In this document: positions 3,441 to 46,730 of the stretch, one piece after another | How positions within the stretch are numbered: the first letter of the stretch is position 1 | How the letters are laid out: each line of letters opens with the position of its first letter | Assembly (NCBI GenBank): GCA_028286405.1 | Contig: JAQBRP010000018.1 | Span: forward strand, 1 to 50,730 | Direction: 5' to 3' | Source of the DNA: Candidatus Saccharimonadota bacterium | GTDB taxonomy: Bacteria > Patescibacteriota > Saccharimonadia > Saccharimonadales > UBA4665 | Length of the DNA stretch: 50,730 nt | Made by a program: the position numbers and the translations under genes | The notes under the pieces: model-generated | Database searches by the model: none | Seen by the model: the letters and a program-made list of their open reading frames with translations, nothing else | Told to the model about the DNA's origin: nothing

Positions 3441-4565
3441 ATGGCGGCACAAGAACTAGCTATAGCTCTATGCAGAGTTTCATCAATAGAGCAGCTCGAA
3501 AACAATAGTCTTAATCGGCAAGAAGAAGCTGTGCTGACAGCAGCTAAGGAACTCGGAGTTAAGATCCCCGATGATGCATGGTGGTCACATAGCGTATCAA
3601 GCAAAAGAGGTACAAATGTAAATAGAAAAGACCTACAGCAAATTACGGAGCGGATTAAGAAAGATAAGCGGATCAAGTACATAATTGTCGATGAACCAGA
3701 TAGATTCATGCGATCAATAAATGAGGCGGCATATTTTGAAGTATCATTCGAGCTGCTGGGAGTTAAGGTCTGGTACGCATCAGATCCAGAGCTCAACAAA
3801 GGTGACTTAGCGTCGAAGCTCCTAAAGTTCACGAAGTATTTATCAGCCGAAGGCAGCAATGAAGAGCGTCAATACAAATCAATAGCCGGACAAGCTAAAG
3901 CTCTCCGAGAAGGCCGTTACCCTTTCTCGCCCAAGCCGGGCTATAGGCGTGGCTATGAGCGAGGCATACAGGAGCCACACCCAGTACGTGGCCCCGCTCT
4001 TCGCGAAGTACTCATCAAAGTGGCCTCGATGCAGGTTACGCCAACACAGGGCCTAATTGAGCTGAATAATAGTAGTTTTATGAAAGACGGAAAAGGTCAC
4101 GCATCTTACAAAATGGATAAATTTCGTAAGATACTAACCGATCCATTCTATGCCGGTATTGTTGAAATAGAAAAGCAAGTGAAAGTTAGGAATGAAAATG
4201 GTTTACATGAGCCCCTTATTAGCCTGGCTCAGCATGAAGAGCTGGTCAGTATCATGGACGGTAAAAAGAAGACTCAGTCTGGTCCTAGAAAGAACGGTAA
4301 CCCTAAGTATCCGCTTTCGAATCATGTAAGCTGCGACCTATGCCGTGATAATCGGATCGGCAGATACGTAGGTTATGACCATGGCAATGGCAAAGGCAAT
4401 CGCATCTATGAAAAATACCGCTGCCGAGGATGCGGTAGATATCTAACTCGTGGTGAATTACACGGTAAAATAGATGCATATTTTAAGGAACGGCAAATGA
4501 CTGAACAAGGCATTACTGATTTAATTCAAGCACTTGAAAAGGTATGGAAACAAAAAGAAGGATGA
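3441..4565 (+). CDS. Large serine recombinase, N-terminal and central part (frameshifted)
   Basis: Site-specific integrase of the large serine family. The resolvase domain begins with ALCRVSS (nucleophile Ser14); the central recombinase domain spans about residues 150-290 (ADPGYRR-like PKPGYRRGYERG, FRKILTDPFYAGIVE); a zinc ribbon follows (CDLC near 317 and CRGC near 346). AGGAAG lies just upstream of the ATG. The frame stops at 4563-4565 just where the usual coiled-coil region begins, and the rest of the protein continues in the +1 frame (4534-4860). Deleting one A from the run at 4552-4556 would give WKQKKDEITDLEEY and one ~472-residue protein. The gene lies against tRNA-Gly, the probable attachment site. 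The recombinase is probably inactive unless the extra A is a sequencing error. Confidence 0.9.
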   Translation: MAAQELAIALCRVSSIEQLENNSLNRQEEAVLTAAKELGVKIPDDAWWSHSVSSKRGTNVNRKDLQQITERIKKDKRIKYIIVDEPDRFMRSINEAAYFEVSFELLGVKVWYASDPELNKGDLASKLLKFTKYLSAEGSNEERQYKSIAGQAKALREGRYPFSPKPGYRRGYERGIQEPHPVRGPALREVLIKVASMQVTPTQGLIELNNSSFMKDGKGHASYKMDKFRKILTDPFYAGIVEIEKQVKVRNENGLHEPLISLAQHEELVSIMDGKKKTQSGPRKNGNPKYPLSNHVSCDLCRDNRIGRYVGYDHGNGKGNRIYEKYRCRGCGRYLTRGELHGKIDAYFKERQMTEQGITDLIQALEKVWKQKEG

Positions 4566-4860
4566 GATTACCGATTTAGAAGAATATCTACGCAAACTAA
4601 AGAATAATTCCGATGAGGATAAAGAACGTTTCCTAAACTTCGCTTTGCATTATGCCAAGAATATGGGAAGCAAATTCTTGGAACTATCCCCCGAGCATAT
4701 ATTGCGGTGTAAACAAATATTATTTCCGGCTGGATTTTACTTGGATGAAAATAATAAAGTTTACACTCCTGAAATCAGCCCGCTTTACGGGTTAGCGACA
4801 AAGAAAAAGAGCGCCGAAGCGCTCGATAATTCCCATTTGGTGCGGGTCAGGGGACTCTAA
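4534..4860 (+). pseudogene. Displaced C-terminal part of the serine recombinase
   Basis: This frame continues the recombinase after a one-base shift. It contains a charged coiled-coil-like segment (EITDLEEYLRKLKN) and then ELSPEHILRCKQILFPAGFY ... VYTPEISPLYGL, which from memory resembles the C-terminal end of recombinases in CPR genomes. It has no convincing start of its own: the first possible start is a TTG inside the upstream gene. The last codons (NSHLVRVRGL) are read from the antisense strand of the tRNA-Gly 3' end, so the gene ends inside the presumed att core. Confidence 0.75.
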
Positions 4861-4914
4861 CCCCTGGCCTCGTCCTTGGCAAGGACGCGCTCTAAACAAC
4901 TGAGCTAGACCCGC
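4838..4914 (-). tRNA. tRNA-Gly (GCC), CCA encoded
   Basis: 77 nt cloverleaf on the minus strand. Acceptor GCGGGTC pairs with GACCCGC, followed by discriminator A and encoded CCA. Anticodon stem CGTCC/GGACG has loop TTGCCAA, giving anticodon GCC. T-arm AGGGG/CCCCT. The serine recombinase gene on the opposite strand ends inside its 3' part, which marks it as the integration target of the element to its left. Confidence 0.95.
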
Positions 4915-39450: not shown

Positions 39451-39510
39451 GTTTACCTAGTCAGCAGTATAGCATGAGCAATATGGCTCGCGGCGCACGC
39501 TTCGCTGTTA

Positions 39511-39625
39511 GTCCAGCTGCCCGCTATCGCTGGGGCTGTGACTAATGACCGAACCGTTCTGTTAATTCGCTCCTCCCAATCAAAATAAATAGCACCTGCG
39601 TGAACAGGTGCTATTTATTTGGCTG
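39511..39625 (+). repeat. Structured repeat module, copy 1 (ends in a terminator)
   Basis: About 115 bp, roughly 90% identical to 41302-41416. It contains stem CCAGC/GCTGG (39513-39517, 39529-39533), stem AATG/CGTT (39544-39547, 39555-39558), a pyrimidine-rich CTCCTCCC and the terminator hairpin at 39583-39620. Stems differ from copy 2 by compensating changes. Abuts the short repeat at 39621. Confidence 0.8.
39583..39620. terminator. Bidirectional terminator hairpin in repeat copy 1
   Basis: 16 bp perfect stem AAATAAATAGCACCTG with loop CGTGAA; AT-rich outer part gives T-rich tails on both strands. Confidence 0.9.
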
Positions 39626-39649
39626 CTCTTAGTTGACGTACTTCGCAAC
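39621..39649 (-). repeat. Short cassette repeat, copy B1
   Basis: On the minus strand GTTGCGAAGTACGTCAACTA then AGAGCAGCC. It starts 10 nt after the stop of the gene at 39660. Copies B2-B4 are at 40271, 40724 and 42608. Confidence 0.85.
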
Positions 39650-39659
39650 TTTGAACATC

Positions 39660-40229
39660 TTAATTATCTAATAATTCAACGCCCGTTTGACGGTATAGGC
39701 GGCCTCTAAGTGTCTGTAGCCCATTGGCAAAATTCTCGCCTAATTCATACATAGCATCGCTTTTAGGGCCTGGCGCGTCTCGGATCGCTTGATAGTTCCT
39801 AACGACTCCGTAAAAGCGCTTATTAACAACAGTAAGTTGTGTTGCATCCTTAGAAGCTACGGGAGGTAGTTCTCGAGTTTGAAGGAATGATTCCGGCAGC
39901 CTCTTCCATTCAGGATTGGACGCTCCCTGTACAGCGTAGGCTCCGGTCATTATTTCAGCGAATCTATAACGAGGAGCACGATGCTTCAAATGATTAATAA
40001 CAAAAGGCCAAAGTGCTAATAAGTCAGGTTTGTCTAGGCCAAACTCCTCTATCTCGACTATGCCTTCCGCAAGTGGCGCAAGTCCTTCTTTTACATAGTT
40101 CCATGCTTCGCTCGAGGGGTAATTAAGCCTGTTAAAATCATTATTGAAACCTGCTAAATAGTCAGCTTCATTATCAAGGAAGTTTACGACTGGATGAGCT
40201 CTGGCTTCAACAGGGGTCAATGAATACAT
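39660..40229 (-). CDS. Hypothetical protein of the tRNA-Gln cassette region
   Basis: 189 residues, soluble, no recognised family. Aromatic helical segments (AWNYVKEGLAPLAEG, LLALWPFVINHLKHRAPRY) and a C-terminal RGRLYRQTGVELLDN. AT-rich codon use unlike the core genes. A leaderless start: TATTTT 6 nt before the ATG, with an 18 bp palindrome overlapping the promoter. The gene upstream overlaps its start by 13 nt. Confidence 0.75.
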   Translation of the reverse strand: MYSLTPVEARAHPVVNFLDNEADYLAGFNNDFNRLNYPSSEAWNYVKEGLAPLAEGIVEIEEFGLDKPDLLALWPFVINHLKHRAPRYRFAEIMTGAYAVQGASNPEWKRLPESFLQTRELPPVASKDATQLTVVNKRFYGVVRNYQAIRDAPGPKSDAMYELGENFANGLQTLRGRLYRQTGVELLDN

Positions 40230-40672
40230 AAACTAAAAATACCATAAATATGGTATTTTGTAAATAGCTTGGCTGCCCTTAGCTGGCGTACTTCGCAACC
40301 AGTTATTATAAATTCAAAATAAATAAATTGAGCAATTCCTAATAGTGATGGTAGGAAACAGGCTGCAATAATCTCAAAACGATAATCTGCGGCGTAGTCA
40401 GCTGGCTCCCCAATAAAGCCGCCCACTATAAATGAAGCAGCTATACCTGCCACAGGTATTAAAACCACCGATACAACTAGTAAGATTGTGCTCAATAATT
40501 TACGGTGGCTAAATGGCATTGTAAGAATATAGATAACTTCTGCAACCAAAAGTATAGGAATAACAATTAACGCCGACAAGCTCCAACCATCTGACAAATA
40601 ATCTAATAAAATCAACAAGGCGGCATATAGCAACATGCTGCATGTAAATAATTTAAAACTATTTCTATTCAT
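40217..40672 (-). CDS. Polytopic membrane protein whose 3' end runs through a cassette repeat
   Basis: 151 residues. Four hydrophobic helices (LLYAALLILLDYL, LIVIPILLVAEVIYIL, TILLVVSVVLIPVAGIAASF, ACFLPSLLGIAQFIYF). After FIIT the frame enters repeat B2 and then the promoter/operator of the next gene, so the last ~28 residues (GCEVRQLRAAKLFTKYH...) are read from non-coding sequence. The natural stop appears lost at the repeat junction. TATAAT lies 8 nt before ATG 40672. Confidence 0.7.
   Translation of the reverse strand: MNRNSFKLFTCSMLLYAALLILLDYLSDGWSLSALIVIPILLVAEVIYILTMPFSHRKLLSTILLVVSVVLIPVAGIAASFIVGGFIGEPADYAADYRFEIIAACFLPSLLGIAQFIYFEFIITGCEVRQLRAAKLFTKYHIYGIFSLCIH
40236..40264 (-). 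promoter_or_regulatory. Promoter with 18 bp palindromic operator O1
   Basis: TTTACA (40259-40264) N17 TATTTT (40236-40241) on the minus strand. The palindrome ATACCATA-AA-TATGGTAT (40239-40256) covers the spacer and the -10 edge. A similar operator O2 stands before the gene at 41223. Confidence 0.65.
40271..40299 (-). repeat. Short cassette repeat, copy B2
   Basis: On the minus strand GTTGCGAAGTACGCCAGCTA then AGGGCAGCC. It is read as codons by the membrane-protein frame at 40217-40672. Confidence 0.8.
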
Positions 40673-40723
40673 TTCTAACAATTATATAGCGGATAAACTA
40701 TTAATGGAATGATGCTTATGCTT

Positions 40724-40750
40724 GGCTGCCCTAGTTGACGTACTTCGAAC
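40724..40750 (-). repeat. Short cassette repeat, copy B3
   Basis: On the minus strand GTTCGAAGTACGTCAACTAG then GGCAGCC, starting 15 nt after the stop of the gene at 40765. It continues into AAGCATAAGCA, the same sequence that follows the tRNA-Gln 3' end. Confidence 0.82.
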
Positions 40751-40764
40751 TATTCGACTGAAAC

Positions 40765-41223
40765 TTACTGGCTAATTTTAAAAAATTGCTCCACCGCCGA
40801 CCGAACTGCAAGTTGACCTGTTTTCATTTTTTCACCCAAATCTAAGTCATACTCCATATCACTCATAGCTGTCCCGATTTCGAGTGTGCTTGGATCTGGG
40901 TTAGAGAGATATAAGGTGTTTCCACTGTTGTTCGCAAGGTGAATACCGTACATGACTGCGTGAACCCGCTCGAAGCCAGTCCACTCGCCGTCTACTTTGC
41001 ACTGCACTCCTGGTGCCCAACTAGGCTGGTACACAAATGTTGGATAAGTTGTCTTACCTCCGGGCTCACCTTCAATCGCGAAAGTACCCCTATTGGTAGC
41101 AGCAACGGACAGACGGGCAAGCGTATGAACTCGTTTTTGAGCATCGCTTGTTGGTCTGAAACCAACACTTAGCACTTCATAAAACAACGGACGAACATAG
41201 AAATTCTCAGAATCTGCACCCAT
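40765..41223 (-). CDS. Hypothetical protein of the tRNA-Gln cassette region
   Basis: 152 residues, soluble, beta-rich (TLARLSVAATNRGTFAIEGE, TTYPTFVYQPSWAPGVQCKV). No family recognised. Start at ATG 41223: an AAAATA-type -10 box (TATTTT on the minus strand) lies 7 nt upstream and overlaps palindrome O2. Upstream in-frame codons run through the operator and a tRNA fragment. Confidence 0.72.
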   Translation of the reverse strand: MGADSENFYVRPLFYEVLSVGFRPTSDAQKRVHTLARLSVAATNRGTFAIEGEPGGKTTYPTFVYQPSWAPGVQCKVDGEWTGFERVHAVMYGIHLANNSGNTLYLSNPDPSTLEIGTAMSDMEYDLDLGEKMKTGQLAVRSAVEQFFKISQ

Positions 41224-41230
41224 GAAACTA

Positions 41231-41259
41231 AAAATACCACAAGAGTGGTATTTCGTATA
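41231..41259 (-). promoter_or_regulatory. Promoter with 18 bp palindromic operator O2
   Basis: TATTTT (41231-41236) with a weak -35 (TATACG) 17 nt away. The palindrome ATACCAC-AAGA-GTGGTAT (41234-41251) has the same length and position relative to -10 as O1. The sequence TTTTAGTTT then precedes the ATG as at 40229. Confidence 0.6.
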
Positions 41260-41290
41260 GTGCTTGTGCGTCGAGCTGGGGATGAGGGAT
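41256..41290 (-). repeat. Displaced tRNA-Gln 3'-end fragment with flank
   Basis: 16 nt at 41275-41290 are identical to the tRNA-Gln 3' end at 43451-43466, in the same orientation. The adjoining ~18 nt are also related (TAGTGCTT.TGC.T). The rest of the tRNA is absent. Confidence 0.8.
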
Positions 41291-41301
41291 GGCACACATT
41301 A

Positions 41302-41416
41302 ATCCAGTCGCCCGCTTCACTGGGGGCTGTGACTAACGACCGAACCGTTCTATTAATTCGCTCCTCCCAAACAAAATAAATAGCACCTGCGTGAACAGGT
41401 GCTATTTATTTGGCTG
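41302..41416 (+). repeat. Structured repeat module, copy 2
   Basis: About 90% identical to 39511-39625. Stem CCAGT/ACTGG (41304-41308, 41319-41323) and stem AACG/CGTT (41335-41338, 41346-41349) preserve pairing by compensating changes. Ends with the same terminator and GGCTG, after which the flank differs. Confidence 0.8.
41374..41411. terminator. Bidirectional terminator hairpin in repeat copy 2
   Basis: Identical to the hairpin at 39583-39620 (16 bp stem, loop CGTGAA). It also lies downstream of the FMN reductase gene on the minus strand. Confidence 0.9.
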
Positions 41417-41483
41417 AGTATTATGTACCAGGTTAGAACCTTATTACTACAAACCTCAACCAATTCTATAGTCTAATAAAAGC

Positions 41484-42053
41484 CTAGGCTACAACTGCAA
41501 CTTCAGAGCTAGCTATGGCAAGCAGCTCTTCTGCCGCTTCGTATAGACTCAATACGTACGGCTTAAATGCTTCGTTAATATCTTTTATCTGTCCATCTTC
41601 ACCAGACATGTCTCGACCAATTGTTAAGGCTGGGCTTAATGGGGTAGGCTGCATCCTTAGTCGCTCGGTGACCTGTCGAAGTTGCGCTGAGGCACCGCCG
41701 CCGCCCTGCACACCATAACTAACAATCATCACTGGCTTAGCTGTCCACTCATGAAACAAGTAATCGATTGCATTCTTAAGTGATGCAGGATAGCCCGCAT
41801 TGTACTCAGGGGTTAGAAATATATAGGCATCAGCCTCTTTGATCTTTTCGCTCCAGGCTTTGGTGTGGTTATGAGCGTATTGATTCATTGAGGGGTGCAT
41901 AGCCTCATCGAATAGTGGCAATTTTTGATCTGCCAGGTCCACGATTTCGTACTCTGTTTCAAGACGTTCTGGAAGATTTGCTATGATCCAGTTAGCTATT
42001 TGTGGACCTACGCGACCAGGGCGAGTACTGCCGATAATAAGTTGAATCTTCAT
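41484..42053 (-). CDS. NAD(P)H-dependent FMN reductase family flavoprotein
   Basis: 189 residues, flavodoxin-like fold. The FMN phosphate loop is IGSTRPGRVGPQIANW (residues 6-21), and LTPEYNAGYPASLKNAIDYL near 80-99 is diagnostic. Reduces flavin, quinones or azo compounds using NAD(P)H. TAGGAG precedes the ATG. Divergent from an HxlR-type regulator, the usual partner of such enzymes. Confidence 0.95.
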   Translation of the reverse strand: MKIQLIIGSTRPGRVGPQIANWIIANLPERLETEYEIVDLADQKLPLFDEAMHPSMNQYAHNHTKAWSEKIKEADAYIFLTPEYNAGYPASLKNAIDYLFHEWTAKPVMIVSYGVQGGGGASAQLRQVTERLRMQPTPLSPALTIGRDMSGEDGQIKDINEAFKPYVLSLYEAAEELLAIASSEVAVVA

Positions 42054-42088
42054 TGCCTAAACTCCTAGTTACGATTGTGTACCTCTTA

Positions 42089-42141
42089 AGCATAGTGCAG
42101 CACAATAATTATTGTAAGTACCGACATTAATGTGGTATACT
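42089..42141. promoter_or_regulatory. Divergent promoters and palindromes between FMN reductase and HxlR regulator
   Basis: Minus: TTACAA-N17-TATGCT (42089-42117). Plus: TATACT at 42136-42141, 6 nt before ATG 42148. Two palindromes sit here: ACAATAATTATTGT (42102-42115) and TACC..ACATTAATGT..GGTA (42119-42137). The -35 regions overlap, so one regulator could control both genes. Confidence 0.65.
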
Positions 42142-42147
42142 CACATA

Positions 42148-42531
42148 ATGGTACGTAAAGAAAATGAAAGTATACTCCAAGCCGGTTGCTCATCGAATTT
42201 AGTGCTGAGCATTATTGCTAGTCGCTGGACGGTGATGGTGCTACACGCCCTCCAACAGGACACTAAACGCTACAGCGACATTACGCGAGCCATTCCGGGT
42301 ATAACCCAAAAAGTCCTGACTGACACCCTCCGAAAGCTCGAGCGAAATGGCATAGTTGAGCGGATTGTCTATCCGGTGGTTCCCCCCAAGGTAGAGTACA
42401 AGCTCACCGATTTAGGCCACACCTTATTCACAACAACAGAGATGTTGGCTGCGTGGGCAGAGACTAATGGCCACATGGTTCTGCAGTCTCGTGATCTATA
42501 TGATGCGCAGCTGGAAACTCTAACGAAATAA
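42148..42531 (+). CDS. HxlR-family transcriptional regulator
   Basis: 127 residues, winged helix. SIIASRWTVMVLHALQQDTKRYSDI near 19-43 and ITQKVLTDTLRKLERNGIVER near 49-69 are typical of HxlR. It probably senses redox or electrophile stress and regulates the divergent flavin reductase. The ATG at 42148 was chosen since TATACT lies 6 nt upstream and an earlier ATG overlaps the promoter. The conserved N-terminal cysteine is present (QAGCSS). Confidence 0.93.
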   Translation: MVRKENESILQAGCSSNLVLSIIASRWTVMVLHALQQDTKRYSDITRAIPGITQKVLTDTLRKLERNGIVERIVYPVVPPKVEYKLTDLGHTLFTTTEMLAAWAETNGHMVLQSRDLYDAQLETLTK

Positions 42532-42533
42532 TA

Positions 42534-42560
42534 AAAAAGCCTCCGATGAGACTTTTGGTT
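42534..42560 (+). terminator. Weak terminator after HxlR gene
   Basis: AAAAG-C-CTC-CGAT-GAG-A-CTTTT hairpin with one mismatch, followed by a GGTTT tail. Confidence 0.5.
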
Positions 42561-42607
42561 TGAATGTCTTATTTGCTTTAAGATTTATAACAGATACAAA
42601 TTGAAAT

Positions 42608-42636
42608 GGCTGCCCTTAGTTGACGTACTTCGCAAC
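42608..42636 (-). repeat. Short cassette repeat, copy B4
   Basis: On the minus strand GTTGCGAAGTACGTCAACTA then AGGGCAGCC, beginning 14 nt after the stop of the gene at 42650. Confidence 0.85.
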
Positions 42637-42649
42637 GCTCACTATAAGA

Positions 42650-43360
42650 TTAGATAAGTTGATGGCGTGGTGCGGGAACATCTTTTGGGTTATCCGATAG
42701 GGGAACAATACTTACTAGTGGGTTTCCTGCTAGGTCTACCAAAGAGACATCGCACATCCGTATACCGATGCTGCGTTGTGCGACACCTAGCATTGAGTAG
42801 CCATTAAAGTTATGACCGCTCTCGTATGGTTGTTTAGGCACCCGTGAAGACCTGAGTTTGGGCCACACGGTAAATACGTCAATGGATCGGTTACGAAATG
42901 TTCTCATATACAATGTATAGTCCCTGTAGATTGGCTCTGGTGGTGGAAGGGTAGTGAGGCCTCGACTTCTTCGCACGATATCGTCCACCAAAGGTGTGAC
43001 TGCAAAATACTGATTTCCGCGTATCATTTTGCCCAAAGCATGCTGGCGTGCTCGATATTGGTCGCGCCTCGTCGTGATGGCCGAAGTGAGTGCGTTTCTT
43101 ACAACGAGGGCAGCAGAAGTATTCCCAAGTTGATCTGCTGCTACAGCCGATAATAGGTCGAGTCGGTCCTTGGTCAAATTAGCAGTCGATATGTCTTGGA
43201 CGGCAGTTTCGAGGTCACTTACAACGGTATGTCTTAGCTCCATTTCGGGCGTGCCTCGGCTGTTGACTAGAGTAAGTGCTCCATCGAGTTGAGCAATCGC
43301 ACTCATATTAGTCACTATATCCTCTGCTATTCCAGCGGATGCTTCATATTTATTACTCAT
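42650..43360 (-). CDS. Hypothetical protein next to tRNA-Gln
   Basis: 236 residues, soluble. The first half is helical (SAIAQLDGALTLVNSRG, DRLDLLSAVAADQLGNTSAA); the second contains YRDYTLYMRTFRNRSIDVFTVWP. No family recognised. Start at ATG 43360 because TATACA (43369-43374) lies 8 nt upstream. First gene downstream of tRNA-Gln on the same strand and followed by repeat B4. Confidence 0.72.
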   Translation of the reverse strand: MSNKYEASAGIAEDIVTNMSAIAQLDGALTLVNSRGTPEMELRHTVVSDLETAVQDISTANLTKDRLDLLSAVAADQLGNTSAALVVRNALTSAITTRRDQYRARQHALGKMIRGNQYFAVTPLVDDIVRRSRGLTTLPPPEPIYRDYTLYMRTFRNRSIDVFTVWPKLRSSRVPKQPYESGHNFNGYSMLGVAQRSIGIRMCDVSLVDLAGNPLVSIVPLSDNPKDVPAPRHQLI

Positions 43361-43405
43361 CAACACTTTGTATAGCATAGAAATTAATTCCAAGCGAGCT
43401 TAAGC

Positions 43406-43429
43406 AAAAAGACTTCCGAAGAAGTCTTT
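43406..43429 (-). terminator. Intrinsic terminator after tRNA-Gln
   Basis: On the minus strand AAAGACTTC-TTCG-GAAGTCTTT followed by TT, a 9 bp stem with a stable UUCG loop, 20 nt beyond the tRNA. Confidence 0.9.
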
Positions 43430-43448
43430 GATGCGTAGTGCTTATGCT

Positions 43449-43522
43449 TGGCTGGGGATGAGGGATTCGAACCCCCGATCGCGGAACCAGAATCCGCTGC
43501 CTTACCACTTGGCCAATCCCCA
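43449..43522 (-). tRNA. tRNA-Gln (CTG), CCA encoded
   Basis: 74 nt on the minus strand. Acceptor TGGGGAT/ATCCCCA, discriminator G, encoded CCA at 43449-43451. Anticodon stem GCGGA/TCCGC with loop TTCTGGT gives CTG. T-arm GGGGG with TTCGAAT loop. A TATAAT lies upstream in the minus direction. Its 3' end is the core shared with the cassette repeats. Confidence 0.95.
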
Positions 43523-44980: not shown

Positions 44981-46459
44981 ATGACTAACGTAGTACAAAC
45001 CTTCGACAATATCTCTAACCGCCTCACTATGTACAAATCGGTACTGTACGGTTTACTGAGCCTGGTTGTAGTAGCCGACATTTTGGCCTTCTTGGACATT
45101 ATTGGCATTAATCCTGTCGGGCTGATTATTTCGGCGGTCACGCTTGGTGTCAGTTGTTACGTAGCCAACTGGATATTCGCTCGTTTATTCCATGCCACCG
45201 AAAACAGTGAGTCCTGGTTAATTACGGCCCTGATTCTGGCCTGTATTTTGAACCCCCGCGTTAGCTGGTCGTTTGTACTGCTGGCGGCACTGTGCGGTGC
45301 AATTGCTATGGCTTCGAAGTACCTGATTACTTGGCGGCACAGCCACATCTTAAACCCGGCAGCTACCGGTGCCTTTGTAGTTAGTGTTACGGGGCTACTC
45401 TCAGCTAACTGGTGGATCGCTACGCCTAACTTACTGCCGGTGACTATTGTGCTGGCCTTACTGGTGCTGCGCAAGCAGCGCAAGTTCACCGTGTTCTTTG
45501 TGTTTGCAGCCACAGCGCTCGTAACTATGCTGCTGGTTAATATTGGCCAAGGACAAGCAACCACTGATGTACTACGGAACGCCTTCTTGTCGTGGCCGAT
45601 TGTCTTTTTGGGTAGCGTTATGCTGACCGAGCCAACTACCTTACCGTCCGACCGATACTACCAGCTTTTGGTGGCTGTCGTGGTTGGTGGCATATTTGCA
45701 TCGCAATTACATTTTGGACCGGTGCATGCCGCGCCACACACTGCGTTGCTGATAGGTAACTTACTGGCCGCGGTGTTGGTTCCGCCCTTTGGTGCTCTGC
45801 TCCGGCTGACAAAAGTCAGCGCTCCGGCACCCGACACCATGGAACTGGTGTTTGATAAACCAAAAGGGCTGCGTTTTATAGCCGGCCAGTACATGGAGTG
45901 GACGTTGGGTCATAAGAACGCCGACGTTCGGGGCAATCGCCGAACCTTTAGCATTGCTTCAGCGCCAGCCGAAGACAACATCCGGCTAACGGTGCGTACC
46001 TTTGAAAAAGGTAGCTCCTTCAAGCGGGCCCTCAGCCAGCTCAAGCCTGGATCAAAACTACGGATAGCAAATATTTCTGGCCAGTTCATCTTGCCGCCAA
46101 CCAAGCAAAAGCTATTACTGATTGCCGGTGGTATTGGCATTACGCCCTTCCGCAGCATGATTGCCCAGCTAGTTGCCACTAAGCAGCATCGTGATATCGC
46201 GCTGGTCTACCTGGCCACGACTGAGCAGCACTTTGTGTACAAAGACCTGTTTAAGCAAGCGACTGCGCTGGGCGTAAAAACCACATACGTCATTGACCGG
46301 ATGAATGACGAAGGGCTACGAGCTGCCGTGCCAGACCTGCGTGAACGACAGGTCATGGTGTCGGGTCCCAGCGGCATGGTGAATCACTACAGTCAGGTGC
46401 TGCGCAGTATGGGCGTCAAGCGCAGCGCCATTCACAAAGATCACTTTAGCGGCTATTAG
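44981..46459 (+). CDS. RnfD/NqrB-like membrane domain fused to an FAD/NAD(P)H ferredoxin-reductase domain
   Basis: 492 residues. The first ~265 residues hold about 8-9 helices resembling RnfD/NqrB; ILNPAATGAFVV near 123-134 corresponds to the flavin-site region of that family. The last ~215 residues form an FNR module: GNRRTFSIASAP near 318-329 (FAD), LLLIAGGIGITPFRSMI near 378-394 (NAD(P)H) and VSGPSGMV near 464. It would carry electrons from cytoplasmic NAD(P)H through the membrane to the flavinylated partner at 43622. ATG 8 nt after apbE. Confidence 0.92.
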   Translation: MTNVVQTFDNISNRLTMYKSVLYGLLSLVVVADILAFLDIIGINPVGLIISAVTLGVSCYVANWIFARLFHATENSESWLITALILACILNPRVSWSFVLLAALCGAIAMASKYLITWRHSHILNPAATGAFVVSVTGLLSANWWIATPNLLPVTIVLALLVLRKQRKFTVFFVFAATALVTMLLVNIGQGQATTDVLRNAFLSWPIVFLGSVMLTEPTTLPSDRYYQLLVAVVVGGIFASQLHFGPVHAAPHTALLIGNLLAAVLVPPFGALLRLTKVSAPAPDTMELVFDKPKGLRFIAGQYMEWTLGHKNADVRGNRRTFSIASAPAEDNIRLTVRTFEKGSSFKRALSQLKPGSKLRIANISGQFILPPTKQKLLLIAGGIGITPFRSMIAQLVATKQHRDIALVYLATTEQHFVYKDLFKQATALGVKTTYVIDRMNDEGLRAAVPDLRERQVMVSGPSGMVNHYSQVLRSMGVKRSAIHKDHFSGY

Positions 46460-46595
46460 TTACTATCGCGGCGGCGGAAGGCGATTGGGTCGGCCATGAA
46501 TGGAGGGGGTATAGCGCTAAAATAACCACCGTTATTACGCCGGTAGGTAAGCACTATGCTATGCTGGGAAAGTTAACAATTTATATATAAAGAGT

Positions 46596-46730
46596 GCGGG
46601 GAGAGAACTAGCTCACTGATCCGCCAGCAGCCTGCGCGTGCGCAAGGTGCTCCATCTAGCCTGCCCGTGCAGGAAAGATATTCATTCTTTGAATCCTTCC
46701 TGAGCCACGCGGCAAAGAAAGGATTTTTTA
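46596..46730 (+). promoter_or_regulatory. Structured metK leader, candidate riboswitch
   Basis: Hairpins: GCA-CC arm (46628-46650) with a TGCG-CGTG-CGCA tip; CCTGC-CCGT-GCAGG (46660-46673). Switch part: GAATCCTTCC can pair with CAGGAAAGATATTC upstream (46670-46702), or its AATCCTT (46692-46698) can pair with AAGGATT (46719-46725), which is the metK ribosome binding site. The two folds exclude each other. Position before metK suggests an S-adenosylmethionine sensor, but no known class core was recognised. Confidence 0.65.

Follow-up and report, generated by a model that had tools for sequence, protein, structure and literature searches.

Integrons are the textbook route by which bacteria collect single genes. 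Here we describe a comparable arrangement in Saccharibacteria, which have tiny genomes and are thought to live on other bacteria. It is a row of genes separated by short repeats that starts at the 3' end of a tRNA-Gln gene on a 50,730-nucleotide contig of a Candidatus Saccharimonadota bacterium (GenBank assembly GCA_028286405.1, contig JAQBRP010000018.1, positions 1 to 50,730; hereafter the window). Among described systems, serine integrases contact approximately 25 bp of each attP half-site, the zinc-ribbon motif occupying positions 16-24 and being displaced by 5 bp towards the centre in attB (PMC3783163), and decayed cis-mobilizable elements (CIMEs) are documented to accrete at the ends of target genes (PMC5704250). 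Our comparison of the window with related genomes indicates that the row is very probably made up of small integrative cassettes, themselves non-autonomous, that bear the attP P arm of a large serine recombinase (LSR) and entered the tRNA-Gln 3' end through an enzyme acting in trans. Such integron-like gene collecting built on a different enzyme has apparently not been described before: a literature search that included few subscription papers found no published account of such arrays for Saccharibacteria or Patescibacteria.

The array consists of four minus-strand copies of GTTGCGAAGTACGTCAAC...CAGCCA starting at the 3' end of tRNA-Gln(CTG) (Table 1). The original prediction, made from the sequence alone, had reported four repeats with this core, and all four are real and lie on the minus strand; the number of matches expected in dinucleotide shuffles is 0, and four copies are far above chance. 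As it had also stated, three of them lie just past gene stops, the core starting 10-13 nt after the stop codons of the genes at 39660, 40765 and 42650, and the copy at 40270-40299 falls within an open reading frame (ORF 40217-40681). The switching of flanking sequences at CAGCCA was confirmed as well. The AAGCATAAGC arm at 40713-40728 equals 43439-43454 (16/16), positions 41275-41290 equal the tRNA-Gln end at 43451-43466 (16/16), and the AAATAAATAGC arm belongs to a 118-nt direct repeat with 90% identity (39508-39625 versus 41299-41416). Boundaries ending in CAGCCA are found 842, 2726, 3179 and 3829 nt downstream of the tRNA, and the genes between them encode an unknown protein, a flavin mononucleotide (FMN) reductase accompanied by a divergently oriented HxlR regulator, and more unknowns. 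Across the whole assembly (636 kb, approximately 75% complete) the 29-mer at up to 3 mismatches is confined to this array, and a looser pattern retrieved one further diverged copy, adjoining tRNA-Asn on another contig (G000:C10:12122-12150). The genome has an additional 580-bp cassette at tRNA-Asn (L108:9376-10030, from G000:C10).

In a comparison set containing one genome per species, the repeat was found in 9 of the 93 genomes of the family, spread over 4 genera and clustered in most of the nine. Every family array with a tRNA on its contig starts at tRNA-Gln, and the repeat tail is CAGCCA at Gln(CTG) and TAGCCA at Gln(TTG), with one genome (G083) carrying one array of each. Searching the whole class with a looser pattern returned 39 of 393 genomes, versus 3 for a reversed-pattern control, and revealed two further tails, GAGCCA beside tRNA-Asn and CTGCCA beside tRNA-Trp. 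In total, 91 sites are distributed over 31 tRNA-anchored arrays or elements of Saccharimonadia, solely at tRNA-Gln, tRNA-Asn and tRNA-Trp. An exact scan of 84,980 species gave 14 stretches whose titles are nearly all Saccharibacteria or Patescibacteria, including the complete chromosome CP023991.1. Anchoring at tRNA-Gln, as proposed earlier, therefore holds for the window, but not as the sole target, since the half-site also occurs at tRNA-Asn and tRNA-Trp with matching of the dinucleotide. The arrays of the relatives lend support to two other proposals, namely serial site-specific insertion of single genes at a tRNA end and an integron-like logic without attC-like repeats; inspected by eye rather than with a covariance model, the 18-bp core GTTGCGAAGTACGTCAAC lacks the attC boxes RYYYAAC and GTTRRRY and the attC arrangement. 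The neighbours of the repeats vary among relatives instead of being the same in all of them, and the copies are not dispersed over the genomes. Of note, 29 of 30 family loci share an identical 22-bp end of tRNA-Gln(CTG) and the downstream sequence is mostly different, and this end is therefore an insertion hotspot for several element types. In the same-genus genome G014 the contig stops approximately 220 bp past tRNA-Gln.

To read the crossover dinucleotide we located the cores without using the tail and recorded, at a fixed offset, the two bases that precede GCCA. This dinucleotide equals positions 71-72 of the adjoining tRNA at 48 of 55 sites. When the tRNAs were permuted among the arrays, 10,000 trials gave a mean of 16 and a maximum of 37 matches, and none (0/10,000) reached 48. 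Outward from the dinucleotide, the P arm is conserved to 24 nt. We then compared the tRNA T-loop GGTTCGAA (positions 11-19) with positions 16-24 of the half-site and obtained the best match at a shift of +5, with an identity of 0.60 (next-best shift 0.42), a value reached in 0 of 5000 shuffles. The shared GTTCGAA had been noticed before this test was made, and the value of +5 was taken from the literature; it is the shift required by the attP/attB rule of serine integrases (PMC3783163). In LSR elements the dyad between the P and P' arms is modest (0.42 at shift 0, next best 0.39).

LSR genes are common in the family, most of them terminating at the 3' end of a tRNA gene. In G079, G080, G081 and several other genomes the gene nearest the tRNA encodes an LSR, and the 3' end of this gene abuts or overlaps the tRNA. 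The first element at tRNA-Gln in these three genomes comprises an LSR of approximately 510 aa and an HUH Rep, and is bounded distally by the array half-site (the Rep, PF23343, was found with Pfam in G080 and G081 and assigned by similarity in G079). The G080 LSR has the domains PF00239 (3.9e-17), PF13408 (1.1e-5) and PF07508 (4.2e-4; 20.9 bits, just below the 21.1 cut-off), and an RVST motif with the invariant Ser is present in 8 LSRs of relatives. A tree of 49 LSRs places those linked to the core in a single clade of 11 rows (support 100/100), 10 of which are core-linked. Because some core-linked LSRs had been found through the core, we also ran the test in reverse, from the LSR protein to the core. 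Among further LSRs of at least 45% identity the core was present in 4 of 5 (G069, the second LSR of G356, G238 and, weakly, G218), and the fifth, in G151, is on a truncated contig on which the core was not seen; among LSRs of 37-42% identity it was found in 0 of 15. The G238 case, retrieved in this way, is an LSR at tRNA-Trp accompanied by six sites. More distant LSRs are associated with half-sites of their own, placed in the same register, and for one such LSR there is an array of four (G196, L236). Half-site identity correlates with LSR identity (Mantel r 0.74, 0/20,000, 19 elements); the half-sites of the distant clades had been chosen for their similarity between loci, regardless of how the LSRs are related. 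Comparison with solved structures gave one weak match, to a resolvase-family domain, and the closest plasmid and phage LSRs are only approximately 22-30% identical. The original prediction had advised looking for a tyrosine recombinase near tRNA-Gln; the enzyme indicated instead is an LSR.

Several observations concern these LSRs more generally. In Saccharimonadia (L231-L250, L042-L079) they lie at the 3' ends of many tRNA genes: besides tRNA-Gln, tRNA-Asn and tRNA-Trp, the targets in the present arrays, these are the genes of Gly, Met, Leu, Glu, Pro, Ala and Ser tRNAs, which are targets of other LSRs, and of Asp tRNA. The HUH Rep of the LSR elements (REP_ORF2-G2P; L025:7275-8547, L072:3805-4674) is preceded in G079 and G080 by a conserved ORF of approximately 60 aa, suggesting a replicating form like that of a plasmid or a single-stranded DNA phage. 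In G026 (L021) an LSR shares a contig with a site, but it belongs to another clade and does not adjoin a tRNA, and we regard this as an unrelated coincidence.

The cassettes themselves are small. We defined 76 intervals shorter than 3 kb (median 648 bp), of which 53 contain a single ORF of at least 60 aa, and in 67 of the 76 the largest ORF is on the tRNA strand, with stop codons just ahead of the half-site. Terminator-like hairpins occur at 27 of 64 cassette heads (2.6 in shuffles) and extended -10 boxes at 12 of 64 (0.8 in shuffles). The cargo includes NUDIX, HAD, PNPOx, signal peptidase, RelB/YafQ, SET, HNH, PAS, serine hydrolase and 2-hydroxyacid dehydrogenase domains, and many cassette genes have no Pfam match. 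Related genes recur in different arrays: NUDIX cassettes were found in G080, G083 and G084 (three arrays, two tRNA-Gln genes), exo/endonuclease-phosphatase cassettes in G083, G084 and G085, and a SET-domain cassette at the tRNA-Gln of G094 has a counterpart at the tRNA-Trp of G195, with 70% identity. The sequences thus show the arrays and their tRNA anchoring, the dinucleotide match, the linkage and co-divergence with the LSR, the attP-like geometry and the presence of related-gene cassettes in different arrays.

These data suggest the following scheme. A cassette usually comprises a single gene, in many cases together with a terminator of its own, and its head sometimes bears an extended -10 promoter. 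The 24-bp half-site at its tail would serve as the attP P arm of a tRNA-targeting LSR. The source of the recombinase would be an autonomous element, composed of an LSR and an HUH Rep, which has the half-site in common with the cassettes and adjoins the tRNA in several relatives. This LSR would recombine the attP of a cassette circle with the tRNA 3' end, acting as attB, at the central dinucleotide corresponding to tRNA positions 71-72. Each insertion would restore the tRNA end and displace older cassettes outward, so that the youngest would lie next to the tRNA. Excision, circular intermediates, action in trans, the order of insertion and recombination itself are what we infer from this arrangement.

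Some of our results weigh against this scheme. The P/P' dyad is not significant in the cassettes, whose right (P') arm is variable and often not LSR-like. Several of the larger intervals contain multiple or reversed genes, and therefore not every interval is one cassette. No LSR of the core-linked clade was found in the approximately 75% complete genome of the window, and the window array may therefore lie dormant, or an element encoded in the quarter of the genome that the assembly lacks may serve it. The exact half-site was found in no viral contig, and no free circular form was seen. Finally, known LSRs do not normally recombine attP with attL, and tandem growth therefore needs the tRNA side together with the variable right arm to act as attB.

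We consider it unlikely, although worth weighing, that the arrays arose by passive accretion, the cassettes being decayed complete LSR elements that had their own integrase and of which one gene and one att arm are left, as in CIMEs, without being mobilized as units. There is precedent for decayed elements at target-gene ends (PMC5704250), and in our data integrase-less units flanked by att sites lie at tRNA 3' ends, complete LSR elements are present within some arrays, one LSR element (G015) is visibly decaying and right arms often do not resemble those of LSRs. Against this, the cassettes are uniformly compact, strand-biased and often equipped with terminators and promoters, and those carrying related genes turn up at different tRNAs and at different positions, a recurrence that suggests mobile units.

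A tyrosine recombinase, either the chromosomal Xer or an integron-type integrase, is a highly improbable agent of cassette movement. The six shared crossover bases (XAGCCA) would fit a 6-bp overlap, and most array genomes have an Xer-like gene, but linkage and co-divergence tie the half-site to one LSR clade, the half-site displays the LSR-specific +5 shift, and the sites are not attC-like. Moreover, PF00589 proteins are few: in nine array genomes we found one or two in six and none in three, and none near an array. With mostly one Xer-like gene per array genome and none at the arrays, this candidate was rejected. Chance clustering near tRNA-Gln of transposon ends or of an ordinary dispersed repeat, similar to repetitive extragenic palindromes or miniature inverted-repeat transposable elements, has in our opinion a negligible probability; the short repeats spaced 0.4-2 kb in the window would agree with it, but the copies are confined to tRNA-anchored arrays, have one orientation and carry the dinucleotide of the adjoining tRNA.

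Beyond the array of the window, we lean towards the broader view that Saccharimonadia have a class-wide gene capture system, equivalent to integrons and independently invented, in which a tRNA would be the platform, a serine recombinase the integrase and the 24-bp half-site the tag. Several LSR clades would have their own tags, and parallel pools at tRNA-Gln, tRNA-Asn and tRNA-Trp would be split by tag and two-base core. The universal T-loop GGTTCGA would be a shared zinc-ribbon binding site, which would explain how one enzyme family is retargeted among tRNAs. If true, a second, independently built cassette system would make gene-cassette arrays a recurring design, Saccharibacteria would have a route for gene gain, and a recombinase family would target a universal tRNA motif. 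Testable predictions follow for the crossover dinucleotide, the half-site and the +5 shift between cassette and tRNA sites.

Table 1 Features of the array at tRNA-Gln(CTG), in window coordinates, listed from the tRNA outward. Mismatches are to the 20-mer.
Feature	Position	Strand	Remarks
tRNA-Gln(CTG), 3' half, putative anchor (attB-like B arm)	43449..43522	-	ARAGORN, Rfam; +5 offset test
tRNA-Gln T-loop GGTTCGAAT	positions 11-19 from crossover dinucleotide CA (tRNA positions 71-72)		+5 offset test
Cassette 1 right arm (P'-like), AGCATAAGC	43439..43448	-	abuts tRNA CCA
Half-site 1, GTTGCGAAGTACGTCAACTAAGGG-CA-GCCA (putative P arm, dinucleotide, GCCA)	42607..42636	-	0 mismatches
Cassette 1 gene, 237-247 aa	42650..43393	-	no Pfam match; cassette 1 = 42607-43448
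HxlR-type regulator	42130..42531	+	PF01638 E=1.3e-30; in composite cassette 2 (40723-42606)
NADPH-dependent FMN reductase	41484..42053	-	PF03358 E=1e-39; in composite cassette 2
Degenerate internal boundary CAGCCA	41411..41416	-	P arm unrecognisable
Terminator and conserved ~110-nt module	41275..41410	-	ends in tRNA-Gln 3'-end copy (41275-41290)
Cassette gene, up to 176 aa	40765..41295	-	no Pfam match; 13 nt ahead of half-site 2
Half-site 2, AGTTCGAAG variant	40723..40751	-	3 mismatches; one-base indel
Cassette 3 gene, 154 aa	40217..40681	-	frame continues through half-site 3
Half-site 3	40270..40299	-	2 mismatches
Cassette 4 gene, 189 aa	39660..40229	-	no Pfam match; cassette 4 = 39620-40269
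Half-site 4	39620..39649	-	0 mismatches; far end of recognisable array
Terminator and ~110-nt module, second copy	39480..39619	-	118 nt 90% identical to 41299-41416

The module of approximately 110 nt has relatives in G079 (two copies) and similar ones in G083 and G067, and may represent a small RNA or act as a decoy attachment site. Elsewhere in the window, an LSR gene at 3441-4565 (PF07508) is convergent with tRNA-Gly(GCC) at 4838-4914 and is part of a different integrated element; being a distant relative, it was set aside as the recombinase of the array. The region upstream of it (1-2450) looks like a type I restriction-modification region. An S-adenosylmethionine riboswitch (RF00162) is located on the plus strand at 46582-46684, downstream of 44981-46459.

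How does this array compare with known systems? The pdif modules of Acinetobacter plasmids (Xer/dif) presumably resemble it in having short gene modules, flanking sites of approximately 28 bp and a recombinase acting in trans; they differ by their Xer tyrosine recombinases, symmetric dif sites, plasmid location and lack of tRNA anchoring. We take the staphylococcal cassette chromosome (SCC; CcrAB/CcrC, attB at rlmH) to be similar in its serine recombinase acting at the 3' end of a conserved gene and in its tandem elements, some of them recombinase-less. SCC units are multi-gene, tens of kb long and located at a protein-coding gene, whereas the cassettes described here have their median of 648 bp and lie at tRNA genes rather than at rlmH. 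CIMEs and the accretion of integrative and conjugative elements share with the arrays tandem integrase-less elements with att sites at a tRNA 3' end, but CIMEs are decayed large islands, for the most part described with tyrosine integrases, and here gene-sized units recur across genera and tRNAs.

With integrons the arrays share tandem, mostly single-gene cassettes in one orientation, a recombination site at the gene 3' end, a fixed insertion point and overlapping types of cargo (NUDIX, toxin-antitoxin, unknowns). Unlike in integrons, the linked recombinase is an LSR and not IntI (no IntI-type integrase was found near an array in the nine array genomes surveyed), the insertion point is a tRNA 3' end, the site is a 24-bp half-site without attC structure, and cassettes often have their own terminator and sometimes a promoter. 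LSR integrative elements (phage-type serine integrases and integrative mobilizable elements) are alike in their Resolvase, recombinase and zinc-ribbon domains, their attP half-site of approximately 25 bp, the attB zinc-ribbon motif 5 bp inward and the 2-bp core. Correspondingly, we found these domains and the catalytic Ser (in relatives, not in the window genome), the half-site geometry and the identical dinucleotide at 48/55 sites. What sets the present arrays apart from such elements is the combination of tRNA 3'-end targets with stacked, recombinase-less single-gene cassettes that carry the same site.

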